64,000 bases of DNA from Nioella nitratireducens (GTDB taxonomy: Bacteria; Pseudomonadota; Alphaproteobacteria; Rhodobacterales; Rhodobacteraceae). The translations under genes and the position numbers were made by a program. The DNA is taken from NCBI RefSeq assembly GCF_001879715.1, contig NZ_MNBW01000008.1, positions 1 through 64,000 of the forward strand. The letters run 5' to 3'. Shown in pieces: positions 34,721-40,304 of this stretch (position 1 is its first letter; each line of letters starts with the position of its first letter). A model generated the notes under the pieces. That model saw nothing but the letters and a program-made list of their open reading frames with translations, did no database searches and was not told the DNA's origin.

Positions 34721-35758
34721 TCAGTATCCTGTCATCTCCAGATACCCGCGCCCCGTGTGGCTGCCCGCAATGGAAATCGGCCCTTCCCAATAGGGAAAGC
34801 TGACCCCCATCCACGCCTGCGGATTGAGCGCCTCGACAGTCACGTCAACGCCCCTCACCGGCAGTGCGACCCGCCATTCGGTCGGCACCTCTCGTCCCTC
34901 TATTTCCACGTGATTCAAGGGGGTTAGCTGCAAAGCCCCGTCCCCGTAAGGCGTCGGTGTGCCGTCCGGTGCGATCCACGTGGCCGAAGTGAACAGCGCC
35001 GCCCCGCGCAGCCCGAACCCCATCAACCGCGCGCCCGTGTCAAAGCTGAGCGAGAACCAATCCCACCCGCTCTGATCCTCGGCCAAGGGCTGTGACGACC
35101 ATTCCCGATCCAACCAGCCCTGCCCTGTCACCGCCACCGGCCCATCCGGCAAAGTCACCACACCGCTAACCTCATAAAAAGGCTGCGAAAAATAGTGGCT
35201 TGCCTGCCCGCCCGGTGACTTCACGGAATAGCCCCGGTCGCCCTGCAACACGATGGGCCCGGTCGCGTGCAGCGCCAGGTCATAGGCAAAATCAGCCCCC
35301 CGCGCCCGCACCGTCATATCTTCGAGTCCCGCACCCGTTGCGAGCATCTGCCAATCGTCGATAAAGGTTTCAAAAGGCGTGGAAATTACCCCCGCCTGCC
35401 CAATCCCCCCGCGCGCCAGACGCTCCGCCACGTGGTGCTCTTCGGCACTCGTTACAGCGGCATGACCCATCCAGACTTGCGGGCTCTGCCACCCCTCTCC
35501 CTCACCGGGCCGCATGGCGCTGCGAAACAAGGTCCATTGCACCCCGTATTGCGCCCCGTCGTCGCCCTCTAGCGTCGCGGTCAGATACCACCATTCAATG
35601 CGAAAATCCGGGTGCGCACCGTGGTCTTGCGGGAAGCTGATGACATGCTGCGGGTCAGGCATGGCAAAGCCCTCGGCCTCGGTTCCAAGGCCCGAAAACC
35701 CCTGTGTCAGAGCCTGATTTGCCCAGAAGATCGCCAGCAGCAGCACCCTAACGTTCAT
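34721..35758 (-). CDS. AttH-like lipocalin-fold protein (carotenoid 1,2-hydratase family)
   Basis: 345 residues. A signal peptide (residues 1-19) is followed by the AttH/CrtC-type pattern: HPDFRIEWWYLTATLEGDDGAQYGVQWTLFR, then SHYFSQPFYEVSG and GWLDREWSSQPL, GWDWFSLSF. Proteins of this type are extracytoplasmic lipocalin-like molecules encoded after ABC exporters of the AttEFGH group, first described in Agrobacterium as involved in attachment. Its start overlaps the permease gene by 11 bases, so it is co-transcribed. Confidence 0.9.
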   Translation of the reverse strand: MNVRVLLLAIFWANQALTQGFSGLGTEAEGFAMPDPQHVISFPQDHGAHPDFRIEWWYLTATLEGDDGAQYGVQWTLFRSAMRPGEGEGWQSPQVWMGHAAVTSAEEHHVAERLARGGIGQAGVISTPFETFIDDWQMLATGAGLEDMTVRARGADFAYDLALHATGPIVLQGDRGYSVKSPGGQASHYFSQPFYEVSGVVTLPDGPVAVTGQGWLDREWSSQPLAEDQSGWDWFSLSFDTGARLMGFGLRGAALFTSATWIAPDGTPTPYGDGALQLTPLNHVEIEGREVPTEWRVALPVRGVDVTVEALNPQAWMGVSFPYWEGPISIAGSHTGRGYLEMTGY

Positions 35759-38144
35759 TGGAAAACACCTTCAGCAAATGCGCGGGCGGCATCCGCAAAA
35801 GCCCGAGCGCGGGATAGGCCGCCGCCAGCGCCGAAGACAGAACGGCCAGCCCCAGCAACCGCACCCAATCCAGAGGAAACAGCATCATCGGCAACCGCCA
35901 GCCAAAGGCCACCACGTTCACCACCGCCAGCAGCACCCACGCCAGCGCCAGCCCCACGGGCAAGGCCACCGCCCAGGTGATCAACACCAACCCAAGGCTG
36001 CGCCCCAGTTCGATCCACGCCAACCGCGCCCGTGTCTGCCCAAGCGCCCAAAGCGGTGCGACCTGCGGCAGGCGCATGGTTGCCAAGGTCATCAGGCTCG
36101 CCAGCAGTGCAAACCCGGCGACGGCCAAGGTCAGCACGTTCAGCGCGCCGGTGACGCGAAAGGTTTGGTCGAACACATCAATCGACGCCTGTTTGACCCG
36201 CTCTTGGTCCACAACGGCCCCATCCGGCAGGTCGAAGCGGTCCTGCAAGGTCGCGATCACCGCGCCACGCCGCTCCGGGTCGATCCGTATCGCGGTGCGC
36301 TGCTCTTGCACGTCATCGAACCGATCCCGCAAAAGGGACAGGGCGATCATCGCCTGTCCGGTGGGGTTCCCGTAGTCCGAGTAGACACCGCCAACCGGCA
36401 GGGTCAGACCATTCGTCAAGCGCACGGGATCACCCGGCGACAGCCCCTCGCGCAAGGAAAGCTGTTCGTTGATCAGGGCAACCTGTCCGGCTGCCAATGC
36501 ATCCCAAACATGCGGAACAGAGACTATCATGGGCCAATACTCTCGATAGGTGGCATGATCCGCCACCCCGTAAACACGGCCCGGTGCGCCAGCAATCCGC
36601 GACTCGGCGTAGGCGATTGGCAAGGTCGCATCGACCATCGGGGCCAGCATGGCCCGGATCTCCTCGGCCTGCCCGTTGCTGGCGGCGGTGACGTAAAGCT
36701 CTGACACCAGCCGCTGGTTGAGCCAACCGAGGAACGTCTGCCGGAACGATCCCACCATCGTGGACACCCCGACATTGGCCGACAGGGCCAGCAGCAGCGC
36801 CATAAGCGCCAGCGACAGACCGGGCAATTGTTGGCGCGTATCGGCCAAAATCCACTCTGGCAACGCGCCCCGCACCATCCGCGACAGCCCCGCAAGGATC
36901 AAGGACACCACAGGCGGCAACATCAGCGCCGCGCCAAGCAACAGCGCCCCAAGGCAGAGAAACCCAGCGATCAGGCTGCCCCCGGTGGCCCCTGCGACAC
37001 CGCTTGTTCCGAACAAGGCAAGCGCTCCGGCGACCTGCCAACGCCGCCCCTTGGCGGATGCCATGGCCCAGGCCCGAGGCTGCGCGGGTGCGAGCAGGGG
37101 CATTCGCGCCACTTTCCACACGGCCTGCGCCGCTGACAGCCATGCCCCCAACATCGCGATCAGCAGGCCGACCCCGGCCCAAAGTGGCCGGAACGCCAGT
37201 GACCCGCCAATATCCGCACCGTATAGGCTGCGCAGCGTGCCCGCCACGTCGGGCAGCAGCGCCGCCGCCACGAAATATCCCAGAAAAACGCCCACCGAAC
37301 CGGCGATCAGGGCGATACCCGTAACCTCGACCATCAGGGCCCCGACCAGGCGGCCAAGCGGCAGGCCAAGGGCGCGTAGGGTGCGAAAGACCGGGCGGCG
37401 CTGCTCAAAGGCCAGCCCGATGGTGGAATGCACGATGAACAGCCCCACGGCAAAGGACAGGAAGCCGAAAGCCGTCAGGTTTAGGTGAAAGCTCTGCGTC
37501 AGACGCGAGAGGTCGCGGTCCTCACTTGGTTGCTGTCGGGTCAGGGACGTGACCTCGGCCAGCGCGGGCAGGCCGGCGGGTTGATCGGGCAGGATCGTCA
37601 GGAAGGAAGGGTCTTGCTGATCCAAAAGCCGCGCGGCCACCGACAGATCGGTGAGGATGAGGCCCGGCGCGATCCCCTCAACCGGCACGAAATTCGGCAT
37701 TTCCCGTTGGTCAGAGACGATATTCACCCCCGGCGTGACGAAGGCCTGCCCCGGCCCTGTCAGGAACGCGGTCGGATCGACAAGGCTCTCGCCGGCGGCC
37801 TGTGGCAGGATACCCTGCGGCGCCGTCAGCGGGTCGATCCCCAGCAAGCGCCACCGCTCTGCTCCGATCTGCACATGCCCGCCGATCACCGGGGACACCA
37901 GCCACCCAGCCCGGCGCAGCGCGATATAATCCGCCATCGGCACGGGCTGGCCATCTGGCGTCACCAACCGGTCATAGCTTTGGGCCGTCACGCTGGCCGC
38001 GGCGCGGGCGTAGCTTTGGCGGGCTTCCTCGTTGATCGCTTGCACGCCCGACCAAAGGGCCGTGGCCAGCGCGAGGCCCAGCATCAGTGTGACCAGTTGG
38101 CCGGGGTGGCGCCGCCAATGGGACAAGAGCGTGAGCAGCGCCAT
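35748..38144 (-). CDS. FtsX-like ABC transporter permease, duplicated type
   Basis: 798 residues. An N-terminal membrane helix (VTLMLGLALATALWSGV) is followed by a large extracytoplasmic region, and FtsX-type membrane blocks of three helices occur near 235-335 and at the C-terminus (about 690-790). The size and two blocks suggest a fusion of the two permeases seen separately as AttF and AttG. The partner ATPase gene ends exactly where this begins (TGA then ATG). The system probably exports or extracts a lipid or lipoprotein towards the AttH-like protein. Confidence 0.9.
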   Translation of the reverse strand: MALLTLLSHWRRHPGQLVTLMLGLALATALWSGVQAINEEARQSYARAAASVTAQSYDRLVTPDGQPVPMADYIALRRAGWLVSPVIGGHVQIGAERWRLLGIDPLTAPQGILPQAAGESLVDPTAFLTGPGQAFVTPGVNIVSDQREMPNFVPVEGIAPGLILTDLSVAARLLDQQDPSFLTILPDQPAGLPALAEVTSLTRQQPSEDRDLSRLTQSFHLNLTAFGFLSFAVGLFIVHSTIGLAFEQRRPVFRTLRALGLPLGRLVGALMVEVTGIALIAGSVGVFLGYFVAAALLPDVAGTLRSLYGADIGGSLAFRPLWAGVGLLIAMLGAWLSAAQAVWKVARMPLLAPAQPRAWAMASAKGRRWQVAGALALFGTSGVAGATGGSLIAGFLCLGALLLGAALMLPPVVSLILAGLSRMVRGALPEWILADTRQQLPGLSLALMALLLALSANVGVSTMVGSFRQTFLGWLNQRLVSELYVTAASNGQAEEIRAMLAPMVDATLPIAYAESRIAGAPGRVYGVADHATYREYWPMIVSVPHVWDALAAGQVALINEQLSLREGLSPGDPVRLTNGLTLPVGGVYSDYGNPTGQAMIALSLLRDRFDDVQEQRTAIRIDPERRGAVIATLQDRFDLPDGAVVDQERVKQASIDVFDQTFRVTGALNVLTLAVAGFALLASLMTLATMRLPQVAPLWALGQTRARLAWIELGRSLGLVLITWAVALPVGLALAWVLLAVVNVVAFGWRLPMMLFPLDWVRLLGLAVLSSALAAAYPALGLLRMPPAHLLKVFSNER

Positions 38145-38804
38145 TCAGGCAGCCTCCAACCGGCCACGGCTGAGATGCACGCGCCGGGAAAACCGCGCGG
38201 CGAGGCGGTTGGAGTGGGTTGCCATGATCAGGGCCGCGCCGGACTCGGCCACCAGATCGAGCATCAGGGACATGACCGCATCACCGGTATCCTCGTCGAG
38301 GTTTCCGGTCGGCTCATCGGCCAGCACCACCTTGGGATGGTTGGCCAACGTCCGTCCGATGGCGACACGTTGCTGTTGCCCGCCGGAAAGCTGCTCGGGA
38401 TAGCGCTGTTGCATCCCCGACAGGCCGAGCCGGTCGATCAGCCGTTGCGTCAGGGCGGCGTCAAAACGCCCGGCCAGCCGCGCCTGAAGGGCGATGTTCT
38501 GCGCCACGGTCAGCGACGGGACGAGGTTGAATTGCTGAAAGACGAGCCCGACCGTATCGCGCCGCACGGTGGCACGGGCGGTGTCGCCCAGGGCGGTGAT
38601 CTCTTGCCCGTCGAGGGTGATCGACCCCTTATCCGGCAGGTCCAGACCTCCAATCAGGTGTAACAGCGTGCTTTTCCCAGATCCGCTTTCGCCGGTCAGC
38701 GCCACGGTCTCTTTGCTGCCGACGGACAACGACACGTCGCTGAGAACCGCCACCGGGCCCTCGCCCGAGCGGTAGGTCTTGCTCACAGTTTCAACGCGCA
38801 CCAT
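38145..38804 (-). CDS. ABC transporter ATP-binding protein, LolD/AttE-like
   Basis: 219 residues, the first gene of the export operon. The Walker A motif is GESGSGKST at 38-46, the signature is LSGGQQQR at about 139-146, and Walker B ends VLADEPTGNLD. The domain is of the MacB/LolD type that pairs with FtsX-like permeases. The start codon at 38804 is divergent from a cobalamin riboswitch, 88 bases from its first paired base. The stop touches the permease start. Confidence 0.93.
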   Translation of the reverse strand: MVRVETVSKTYRSGEGPVAVLSDVSLSVGSKETVALTGESGSGKSTLLHLIGGLDLPDKGSITLDGQEITALGDTARATVRRDTVGLVFQQFNLVPSLTVAQNIALQARLAGRFDAALTQRLIDRLGLSGMQQRYPEQLSGGQQQRVAIGRTLANHPKVVLADEPTGNLDEDTGDAVMSLMLDLVAESGAALIMATHSNRLAARFSRRVHLSRGRLEAA

Positions 38805-38892
38805 TGGCCTACCATCCTTTTCCCTGATCTTGGCCGCCGGGCGGCAGTTTCAAGTTGACCAAGCCGAGTGAGAGGCGCAAGGATTCCCCCAC

Positions 38893-39079
38893 GATGGTTT
38901 TCCAAAGGGTCAAAGCCCTACGGAAATGAAAAGGGAATGCGGTGCGGGGTCTGCCCCCAAATCCGCAACTGCCCCCGCAACTGTAAGCGGAGAGCGCCCC
39001 CACCAATTGCCACTGGCCCCGGGACGGGCCGGGAAGGCACGGGGACCGCATCGACCCGCAAGTCAGGAGACCTGCCATC
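38893..39079 (+). promoter_or_regulatory. Cobalamin riboswitch
   Basis: The conserved elements appear in order: GGGAATGCGGTG (38933-38944), CCGCAACTGCCCCCGCAACTG (38964 on), the B12-box core GCCACTG (39009-39015), GGGAAGGC (39031 on) and AGTCAGGAGACCTGCC (39061-39076). GATGG (38893-38897) pairs with CCATC (39075-39079) to close helix P1. It precedes the DUF1636 gene. Adenosylcobalamin binding normally lowers expression of the downstream gene. An expression platform is visible at 39111-39157. Confidence 0.95.
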
Positions 39080-39110
39080 AGACTGCAAACCCGAGGGCGG
39101 GGTGTCCTTC

Positions 39111-39157
39111 GAGGGGGGTTTCGCACCCTCCCGATCCGTCCATCAAAGCGCGGAGGG
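39111..39157 (+). promoter_or_regulatory. Candidate expression platform masking the ribosome site
   Basis: CCCTCC (39126-39131) can pair with GGAGGG (39152-39157), which is the ribosome site of the DUF1636 gene, 5 bases from its ATG. An upstream GAGGG (39111-39115) can pair with the same CCCTC and free the site. This points to translational rather than terminator-type control. Confidence 0.5.
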
Positions 39158-39161
39158 CGCG

Positions 39162-39542
39162 ATGATTCTGACTGAACAGGATATGTCCTATAGCTGCACG
39201 ACCTGCCCCAAGACAGGGCGCCCCTGTCTGGCCGGGCTGAAACTGGCCAAGCAACTGGCCGGGGCGATCCGGGCCAGCGGCGCGATAGTGGATGAGACTT
39301 TCGAGATGACCGGCCACGGCGCGTTGGAGGGCTGCGATGGCGGCGCGTGTGATGTGGTTTATCGTCTCTGTAAAATGGAAATCAGTGTCTTTTGCGGTGT
39401 CGATCAGGGGGCAGACCCGGATCAGTTGCAGGCGTTTGCCAACGCATTTCTGGGCGGCGGGCCGATCCCATCCAGCCCCATCCCCCGCGCCATGATCGTG
39501 GCCGAACGCCGCACGGCAGAGACGGCCCACGCACACGCCTGA
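39162..39542 (+). CDS. DUF1636 cysteine-rich predicted metal-binding protein
   Basis: 126 residues with seven cysteines (12, 15, 22, 58, 63, 70, 78). SCTTCPKTGRPC at 11-22 and CDGGACDVVYRLC at 58-70 are the DUF1636 (COG5469) pattern, predicted to bind metal. A cobalamin riboswitch sits directly upstream, so the protein belongs to the B12 regulon and may handle cobalt or a precursor. The ATG at 39162 has GGAGGG 5 bases before it; an open frame extends to 38868 only through the riboswitch and is not a real start. No other cobalamin genes are nearby. Confidence 0.92.
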   Translation: MILTEQDMSYSCTTCPKTGRPCLAGLKLAKQLAGAIRASGAIVDETFEMTGHGALEGCDGGACDVVYRLCKMEISVFCGVDQGADPDQLQAFANAFLGGGPIPSSPIPRAMIVAERRTAETAHAHA

Positions 39543-39605
39543 ACACGGCACTGGACAGCGCGGGCCAAGCTGGCACTCTTTGCGGATCAGCGAAAAGGAG
39601 GGCCC

Positions 39606-40304
39606 ATGCCAAACGGACGCATCGATTCAGTCGAACGGGCGATGTCCATCCTGTCGGCCTTTTCAAGCCAACGCCGCCGCATGACGCTGGCGGAACTGGC
39701 CGAGGAAACCGGCCTGCACAAAAGCACCGTCTCGCGGCAGGCGCGGTCTATGTTGCTGTACGGGTTTTTGACGCGGGATGCAGACGGGCGGTTCGGAATC
39801 GGGGCGTCGGTCTGGCGCTTGGGGCTGATCTTTCGGCAGGATTACCAGAACGGCGCCATCATTCGCCCCGCCTTGCGCGATCTGGTCGCAAAAACCGGGG
39901 AAACCGCATCCTTTTACGTCCAGGCGGGTGACGACAGGGTATGCCTCTACCGGGAAAATTCACCCAACCTGATCCGCTATCACCTGGAAGAAGGGATGCG
40001 GCTGCCGATGGATCGGGGGTCGGTTGCGATGGTGCTGCGCCGGGCCGCTGGCGAAGAGGTGCCGAAGGGGATCACCTTCACCCCGGCCGGGTCCGTGACG
40101 CTTGAAGGCGGACGCAACCCCAACATCGCCTCGGTGGCGACGCCGGTCCATGACGGCGATGGCCGGTTGCTGGGCGCCTTGGCGGTGTCGGGGCTGACCA
40201 CGCGGTTTACGGCGGACCGTCGGACCGCCGCCCTCGACCTGTTGGAAAGTCACGCGGCCGCGTTGCGGCTACGGTCTGGCGATCTGGGTGAAAACAGTCT
40301 CTAA
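39606..40304 (+). CDS. IclR-family transcriptional regulator
   Basis: 232 residues. The N-terminal helix-turn-helix (ERAMSILSAFSSQRRRMTLAELAEETGLHKSTVSRQARSMLLYGFL) is the IclR winged helix, and the C-terminal GAF-like effector domain includes NIASVATPVHDGDGRLLGALAVSG. Effector and targets are unknown. An AAAGGAGGG site lies before the ATG at 39606. It follows the DUF1636 gene by 63 bases and may be expressed with it. A perfect dyad spans its stop codon. Confidence 0.92.
   Translation: MPNGRIDSVERAMSILSAFSSQRRRMTLAELAEETGLHKSTVSRQARSMLLYGFLTRDADGRFGIGASVWRLGLIFRQDYQNGAIIRPALRDLVAKTGETASFYVQAGDDRVCLYRENSPNLIRYHLEEGMRLPMDRGSVAMVLRRAAGEEVPKGITFTPAGSVTLEGGRNPNIASVATPVHDGDGRLLGALAVSGLTTRFTADRRTAALDLLESHAAALRLRSGDLGENSL

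Follow-up and report, generated by a model that had tools for sequence, protein, structure and literature searches.

A cobalamin riboswitch of Nioella nitratireducens precedes a lone gene for a cysteine-rich protein related to DUF1636

Which step of vitamin B12 physiology does a cobalamin riboswitch serve when a single gene of no named family lies behind it, and how could the aptamer reach the start of that gene? The question is raised by a locus of N. nitratireducens, here studied within a 64 kb window, by which we mean the whole stretch of DNA that was analysed. The elements of the locus are as follows.

38878-39093, plus strand: cobalamin riboswitch aptamer RF00174 (cmscan 127.1 bits, model positions 1-189 of 189)
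38893-38897, plus strand: 5' strand of P1, GATGG, paired with CCATC at 39075-39079 (from the sequence and the RF00174 alignment)
38973-38978, plus strand: putative L5, CCCCGC, complementary to L13 (from the sequence)
39092-39111, plus strand: putative P13 hairpin (arms 39092-39096 and 39107-39111; from the sequence)
39097-39102, plus strand: putative L13, GCGGGG, the exact complement of L5
39126-39131, plus strand: CCCTCC, putative anti-Shine-Dalgarno, the exact complement of GGAGGG at 39152-39157
39148-39160, plus strand: hairpin GCGC-GGAGG-GCGC, whose loop holds the Shine-Dalgarno (covariation, 42 distinct arm pairs)
39162-39542, plus strand: gene of the 126-aa protein P0001, ATG to TGA (from translation; Cys15, Cys22, Cys58 and Cys63 invariant in the family alignments)

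The aptamer is the sole Rfam match at gathering score in the window; the genome as a whole has three RF00174 matches, this one included. It scores far above the gathering score of 31.5 bits (E 1.5e-31) and covers the model from end to end, which bears out the first-pass annotation in its claim of a complete cobalamin riboswitch closed by a GATGG/CCATC P1; the translated reading frame likewise has the seven cysteines given there, at positions 12, 15, 22, 58, 63, 70 and 78. Kissing between L5 and L13 has an established role in this riboswitch class, and by likeness to known members we assign the two loops putatively in the window leader. A GTG within L13, in frame with the gene in the window and in three genus-mates, was weighed as an upstream start and set aside in favour of the ATG that follows GGAGG, where the alignment of the family starts.

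Relatives of P0001 were sought at several depths. The sequence itself matched in 17 of 147 related genomes, its own included, and a profile of 11 members matched in 46 of the family's 295 genomes, with strong matches (E below 1e-30) in 15. The weaker matches that were inspected proved mostly to be DUF1636-like genes, hereafter H-type, which pass the PF07845 cut-off where compared (G040, G279, G187, G261 and the second match of G080); G215 and G255 belong to the group of P0001 itself, hereafter the new group. At the level of the class, a 38-row profile found matches in four of 385 genomes, namely the genome studied here, two of the same family and one of another family. These relatives came from the profile and whole-genome searches; scanning with peptide patterns of P0001 by itself had confirmed none. 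A species-wide scan (84,980 species, each represented by a single genome) confirmed 37 loci; it relied on two peptide patterns and, as Cys15 and Cys22 form part of one of them, is not blind to these cysteines. Five of the 37 loci are the same places as loci from the family genomes (G043, G254, G299, G354 and G215), and 24 are titled Leisingera, Phaeobacter, Tritonibacter, Ruegeria or Tropicibacter; Leisingera aquimarina DSM 24565 and Phaeobacter italicus CECT 7645 are among the strains with the gene. The family members come mostly from marine bacteria, and B12-producing bacteria of the Roseobacter group are thought to be important sources of the vitamin in the sea. One scan locus, L094 (JAHVJD010000004.1), is titled Nocardioides marinus, an actinobacterium by taxonomy, and carries a Roseobacter-type locus, so that the label looks wrong.

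The association with the riboswitch is close to universal. By cmscan, RF00174 precedes the gene in all 37 loci of the species-wide scan, and it precedes the gene or its DUF1636-like relative in 34 of the 35 distinct family-genome loci, a mixture of new-group and H-type genes drawn from sets with 16 of 17 loci and 18 of 19 sources positive and one miss in common. That sole miss is G045, where L014 and L035 are the same place; in the new-group alignment A3, which includes the window gene, 18 of 19 members have the riboswitch. The single member from outside the family has it as well. A further 17 matches of the 46-genome search stand outside the locus count, and the riboswitch lies just before two of them (G261 and G080). 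The exception G045 (L014, L064), alone among the family members found in having no riboswitch ahead of it, comes from a genome that gave no DUF1636 match, and its gene sits behind a LolD-like gene and a large gene, as in the neighbourhood of the window.

Moreover, the pairing is kept at different genomic sites: between folC and IclR-ZapE in the genus of the window, and near dnaX and ffs in others, ffs falling inside the fetched stretch in 35 of the 37 scan loci. In the genus-mate G002 the flanking LolD-FtsX and IclR-ZapE genes are present with a transporter gene between them, neither the gene nor the switch is found there, and both riboswitches of that genome lie on another contig. In G005, which is 81% complete, the stretch L151 gave neither a P0001 match nor a riboswitch; it begins at a contig end, and the absence is not firm. 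The description of the gene as a lone member of the B12 regulon is thus upheld, both by a switch-gene pairing found in dozens of genomes at different sites and by the joint absence of switch and gene from the corresponding region of G002. That a lone gene should keep its riboswitch across many species and sites argues strongly, if indirectly, for a component of B12 or cobalt handling that has so far been missed.

How the aptamer may act on the gene was approached through the leaders, 72 in number, with five places counted twice across the two locus sets. An L13 pattern lies 3' of the B12 box in 69 of them; two of the remaining three are incomplete as extracted and one has an extra base. GGAGG is present in 67, and in four of the other five the gene starts right after P13. 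Across the 42 distinct arm pairs around this Shine-Dalgarno, base pairs 1 to 4 form in 40, 42, 39 and 38 cases, against means of 38.1, 40.1, 31.6 and 26.7 after shuffling, a procedure that ignores descent; two-sided changes occur at pair 3 (CG/GC/TA) and pair 4 (GC/TA/AT), and nothing was seen for pairs 5 and 6. More telling is the start-codon control, in which a perfect 4-bp stem encloses 44 of 46 family GGAGG starts versus 1 of 103 other GGAGG starts in the window and the longer loci, the family members having been recognised by a motif. By free-energy folding alone, no more than 25 of 65 leaders form the hairpin with a probability above 0.5. The covarying Shine-Dalgarno hairpin offers a testable element of riboswitch output. 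In its full-length aptamer, its B12 box and its possible L5-L13 complementarity the window leader resembles the known translational cobalamin riboswitches of RF00174; unlike them, it displays the Shine-Dalgarno in a pentaloop closed by a covarying 4-bp stem, and many of its relatives have an ATG and a short frame after P13.

We consider it likely that the window gene is under a translational OFF switch. The riboswitch would be of the adenosylcobalamin type, and with ligand bound the L5-L13 kissing would keep P13 and L13 in place; CCCTCC would then pair over the Shine-Dalgarno and turn translation off. In the absence of ligand the Shine-Dalgarno would be displayed in the small conserved hairpin loop and translation would start, so that the product would be made as B12 runs low. 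Holding P13 and L13 in the window leader lowers the unpaired fraction of the Shine-Dalgarno from 0.60 to 0.01 with a 6-nt tail and from 0.63 to 0.05 with a 30-nt tail. Relative to the free state, the held state loses 6.5-6.8 kcal/mol of stability, a cost that ligand and kissing would have to pay. Folding of the genus-mates is mixed: with P13 held, the value goes from 0.90 to 0.01 (6-nt tail) and from 0.63 to 0.72 (30-nt tail) in L009, and from 0.74 to 0.01 and from 0.98 to 0.96, respectively, in L010, and in L011 the Shine-Dalgarno is closed in both states.

By analogy with ppe2 of M. tuberculosis, whose expression depends on an upstream ORF by termination-reinitiation according to the accessible part of its report (PMC11260477), the riboswitch could instead govern a leader ORF, with the gene translated by coupling. 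An ATG lies 18-31 nt past L13 in 43 of 66 leaders (30 of 47 non-redundant ones; the 66 are the 72 minus four direct starts and two incomplete as extracted), where the rest of the leader has a background of 0.119 per 16-nt stretch; of 29 non-redundant leaders, 26 keep its frame open as far as the hairpin, compared with 14 and 22 for the other two frames, and in some leaders, for example L016, L077, L079 and L080, the stop codon and the gene start share an ATGA. However, this excess of open frames is modest, the leaders are related by descent, and neither the window nor its three genus-mates has such an ATG, which makes us doubt that coupling is how the riboswitch controls the gene and removes the leader ORF as the mechanism of the window itself. 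The part of the relatives with a leader ORF and ATGA overlap is alike to the ppe2 switch, as far as described in that portion of the paper (PMC11260477), which concerns a different riboswitch variant and a different gene; the leader ORF is not found in the window. A still wider picture, to be taken as tentative, would join the two: a family of dedicated B12-shortage factors of mostly marine Rhodobacteraceae, with a cysteine set shifted from that of DUF1636, might use a new two-step expression platform in which P13 governs the leader ORF in many lineages and translation of that ORF opens the Shine-Dalgarno hairpin, the genus of the window having lost the ORF and using direct anti-Shine-Dalgarno pairing. 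Short leader ORFs right after P13 and over the ribosome-binding hairpin were seen in L016, L077, L079, L080, L013, L017 and L053, among others.

For the window, a direct translational OFF switch is our preferred reading, and the gene behind the riboswitch mostly stands alone. It had been claimed that no other gene lies downstream; this stands as to conserved partners but not to the letter, since an IclR-type regulator (39606-40304) begins on the same strand 63 nt past the P0001 stop. Between the two genes no terminator-like site turned up on the plus strand in a simple pattern scan, so co-transcription with IclR is possible in the window genome. As an operon partner IclR was nevertheless rejected: it lies about 4 kb away in the genus-mates, with ZnuABC between, and it is also present in G002 and G005, where the homologue search found no P0001 homologue. 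In the 36 of 37 scan loci with a called downstream gene, that gene runs opposite to the family gene in 28 and shares its strand in eight, at a distance of at least 114 nt, by the calls of a simple gene caller, three of the eight being short (92-103 aa). With no conserved partner downstream in most of the genomes examined, the gene can be tested by itself.

A few relatives do have company. At L068 (G153:C5; also L039) a new-group gene behind its riboswitch is followed by a second riboswitch and then by Peripla_BP_2, FecCD and ABC ATPase genes of BtuFCD type; an ABC ATPase and FecCD come next after the H-type gene of L070, with the same clusters at L071 by blastp, and a Peripla_BP_2 gene comes next after that of L072. 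In three genus-mates a ZnuABC-type operon is convergent beside the gene (by Pfam in L073, by the same sequence clusters in L059 and L074). Where these three have ZnuABC-type genes, the window has CrtC-like, FtsX and LolD genes between folC and IclR (34721-39605), so that the site is rearranged within the genus.

Apart from the window gene, the riboswitch regulon of the genome consists of DUF1636-cobW-cobN and of cbiM. Two canonical DUF1636 genes (PF07845) are present. The first (G000:C67:216971-217315) follows another cobalamin riboswitch, and its end lies 3 nt short of cobW, which cobN follows; the second and shorter one (G000:C67:230011-230271) stands just before the third riboswitch, with cbiM behind it. 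Between them lie CbiC, four tetrapyrrole-methylase genes and a gene of CobB/CbiA type, and the genome therefore encodes much of a B12 route.

Taken as a whole, a translational OFF switch set before a lone sister-family protein, which would hold a metal or Fe-S cluster by four cysteines and assist corrinoid metabolism, seems to us somewhat more probable than not. That P0001 serves B12 or cobalt metabolism is probable in itself, and cobalt handling or cobalamin salvage, as the first-pass annotation proposed, are possible roles. The known contexts, DUF1636 with cobW-cobN (cobalt insertion) and relatives with BtuFCD-type genes (corrinoid uptake), point to corrinoid or cobalt chemistry. Most likely P0001 would help at a reductive or metal step by which the cofactor is made or reclaimed, and as a first choice it would supply electrons for the reduction of corrinoid cobalt before adenosylation. 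We place an electron carrier first among the roles because this reduction is a step common to both contexts, and we rate its chance at a little under even.

Alternatively, P0001 could act as a chaperone or buffer for a metal (Co, Zn or Fe), delivering cobalt to the CobNST chelatase or protecting it for that enzyme. The DUF1636 gene immediately ahead of cobW and cobN speaks for this, as does the convergent ZnuABC-type transporter of the three genus-mates, and four cysteines fit Zn, Co or Fe-S equally; however, the BtuFCD-type context concerns corrinoids and needs no free cobalt, and the Znu neighbour is absent in the window genome, so that we see in the chaperone a possible role and a rather unlikely one.

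The name DUF1636, under which the gene had been introduced, could not be kept. P0001 matched no family of Pfam or NCBIfam at E<=10, DUF1636 included, and the PF07845 model (curated cut-off 31.6 bits, which P0001 does not reach) matched two other genes in the whole genome and not this one. A search of the literature found no paper mentioning COG5469, which we take to be the name of DUF1636 among the COGs. The available portions of papers naming DUF1636 were not found to treat riboswitches, and those of PMC4809877, PMC7689651 and PMC11260477, among other sources, yielded nothing on the P0001 family. Common descent is visible in profile comparisons, in which hhalign matched the new group to the H-type with 98.7% over 94 columns, another comparison giving 98.8% over 88 columns. 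In a tree of 71 sequences, whose detail is limited by few columns and several long branches, the 52 new-group rows form one side of a branch with support 100/100.

The cysteines tell the groups apart. All 52 new-group rows have a cysteine at the positions of Cys15, Cys22, Cys58 and Cys63, an invariance that for Cys15 and Cys22 is partly selected, because some rows came from peptide patterns, one containing both. The columns of these four correspond to Cys17, 24, 60 and 64 of the H-type, which are present in 17, 16, 17 and 17 of 17 H-type rows and in 2, 0, 2 and 1 of the two canonical DUF1636 copies of the genome. At the column of H-type Cys56 no new-group row has cysteine (Ala54 in P0001), compared with 16 of 17 H-type and both canonical sequences; at that of Cys14 (Cys12 in P0001) the counts are 6 of 52, 17 of 17 and 2 of 2. 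Cys78 is cysteine in 46 of 52 new-group rows and in no H-type row. Each half of the new-group protein thus retains two cysteines, partly other ones than the ligands proposed for DUF1636 in the accessible part of PMC4520260. This partly different cysteine set is our main reason for not filing P0001 as DUF1636 and for not assuming the same cofactor. By sequence comparison we regard the P0001 group as a distinct sister family of DUF1636, without a family name so far; it is like DUF1636 in length, in descent and in its place behind cobalamin riboswitches, and unlike it in the loss of Cys56, the near loss of Cys14, the failure of Pfam to detect P0001 and the usual position as a lone gene outside a cobW-cobN operon. 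The gene is accordingly no clean target for finding the role of DUF1636, as had been suggested, nor a clean proxy for it, because its group is a diverged sister that lacks a DUF1636 cysteine. P0001 likely binds a metal or a [2Fe-2S] cluster through the four invariant cysteines, and is probably cytosolic.

That P0001 is an ordinary DUF1636 protein overlooked by Pfam is quite improbable: the hhalign result, the matches of PF07845 to 19 of 38 members at E<=1 (best 4.1e-5; P0001 and the 37 loci of the species-wide scan) and the H-type counterparts of all four invariant cysteines favour it, but P0001 itself has no Pfam match even at E<=10, the new group separates with full support, and the H-type Cys56 is missing from all of its rows and Cys14 from all but six.

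The fold of the sister family was modelled with AlphaFold2, once with P0001 as the first sequence (pLDDT 87.7, pTM 0.83) and once with a Leisingera member first (88.8 and 0.82), and both models share the topology of two strands, a helix, three strands, a helix, a strand and a helix. Foldseek found no clear match for either in the PDB (best E 0.28 and 0.23), and the best VIA-align results, Z 5.4 (rmsd 2.5, 66 residues) and Z 4.5 (rmsd 3.0, 69 residues), are both pseudopilins and no clear matches. A longin/roadblock-like arrangement was set aside, its VIA Z of about 2-4 (e.g., 7u06_D, 3.9) being too weak for use. A sequence search of the PDB with the new family gave nothing at E<=10; the entry 9jn8, "ORF378", a solved structure that sequence comparison places in DUF1636 (E 3.5e-37 to the canonical DUF1636 gene of the genome), is not among the matches listed in the fold search for either model. 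No paper on 9JN8 was found, and papers with "ORF378", in their available parts, are apparently not about the P0001 family. For DUF1636 a thioredoxin-like [2Fe-2S] ferredoxin fold has been proposed in the accessible part of PMC4520260. The fold search of our two models gave no support for this fold and no clear other one, nor did it contradict a thioredoxin-like fold. Like the thioredoxin-like [2Fe-2S] ferredoxins, P0001 has two cysteine pairs in two loops, and the family spacing C-x6-C ... C-x3-C (x4 in P0001) presumably resembles the ferredoxin pattern; the last pair is offset by about four residues from the one proposed for DUF1636 in that part of PMC4520260.
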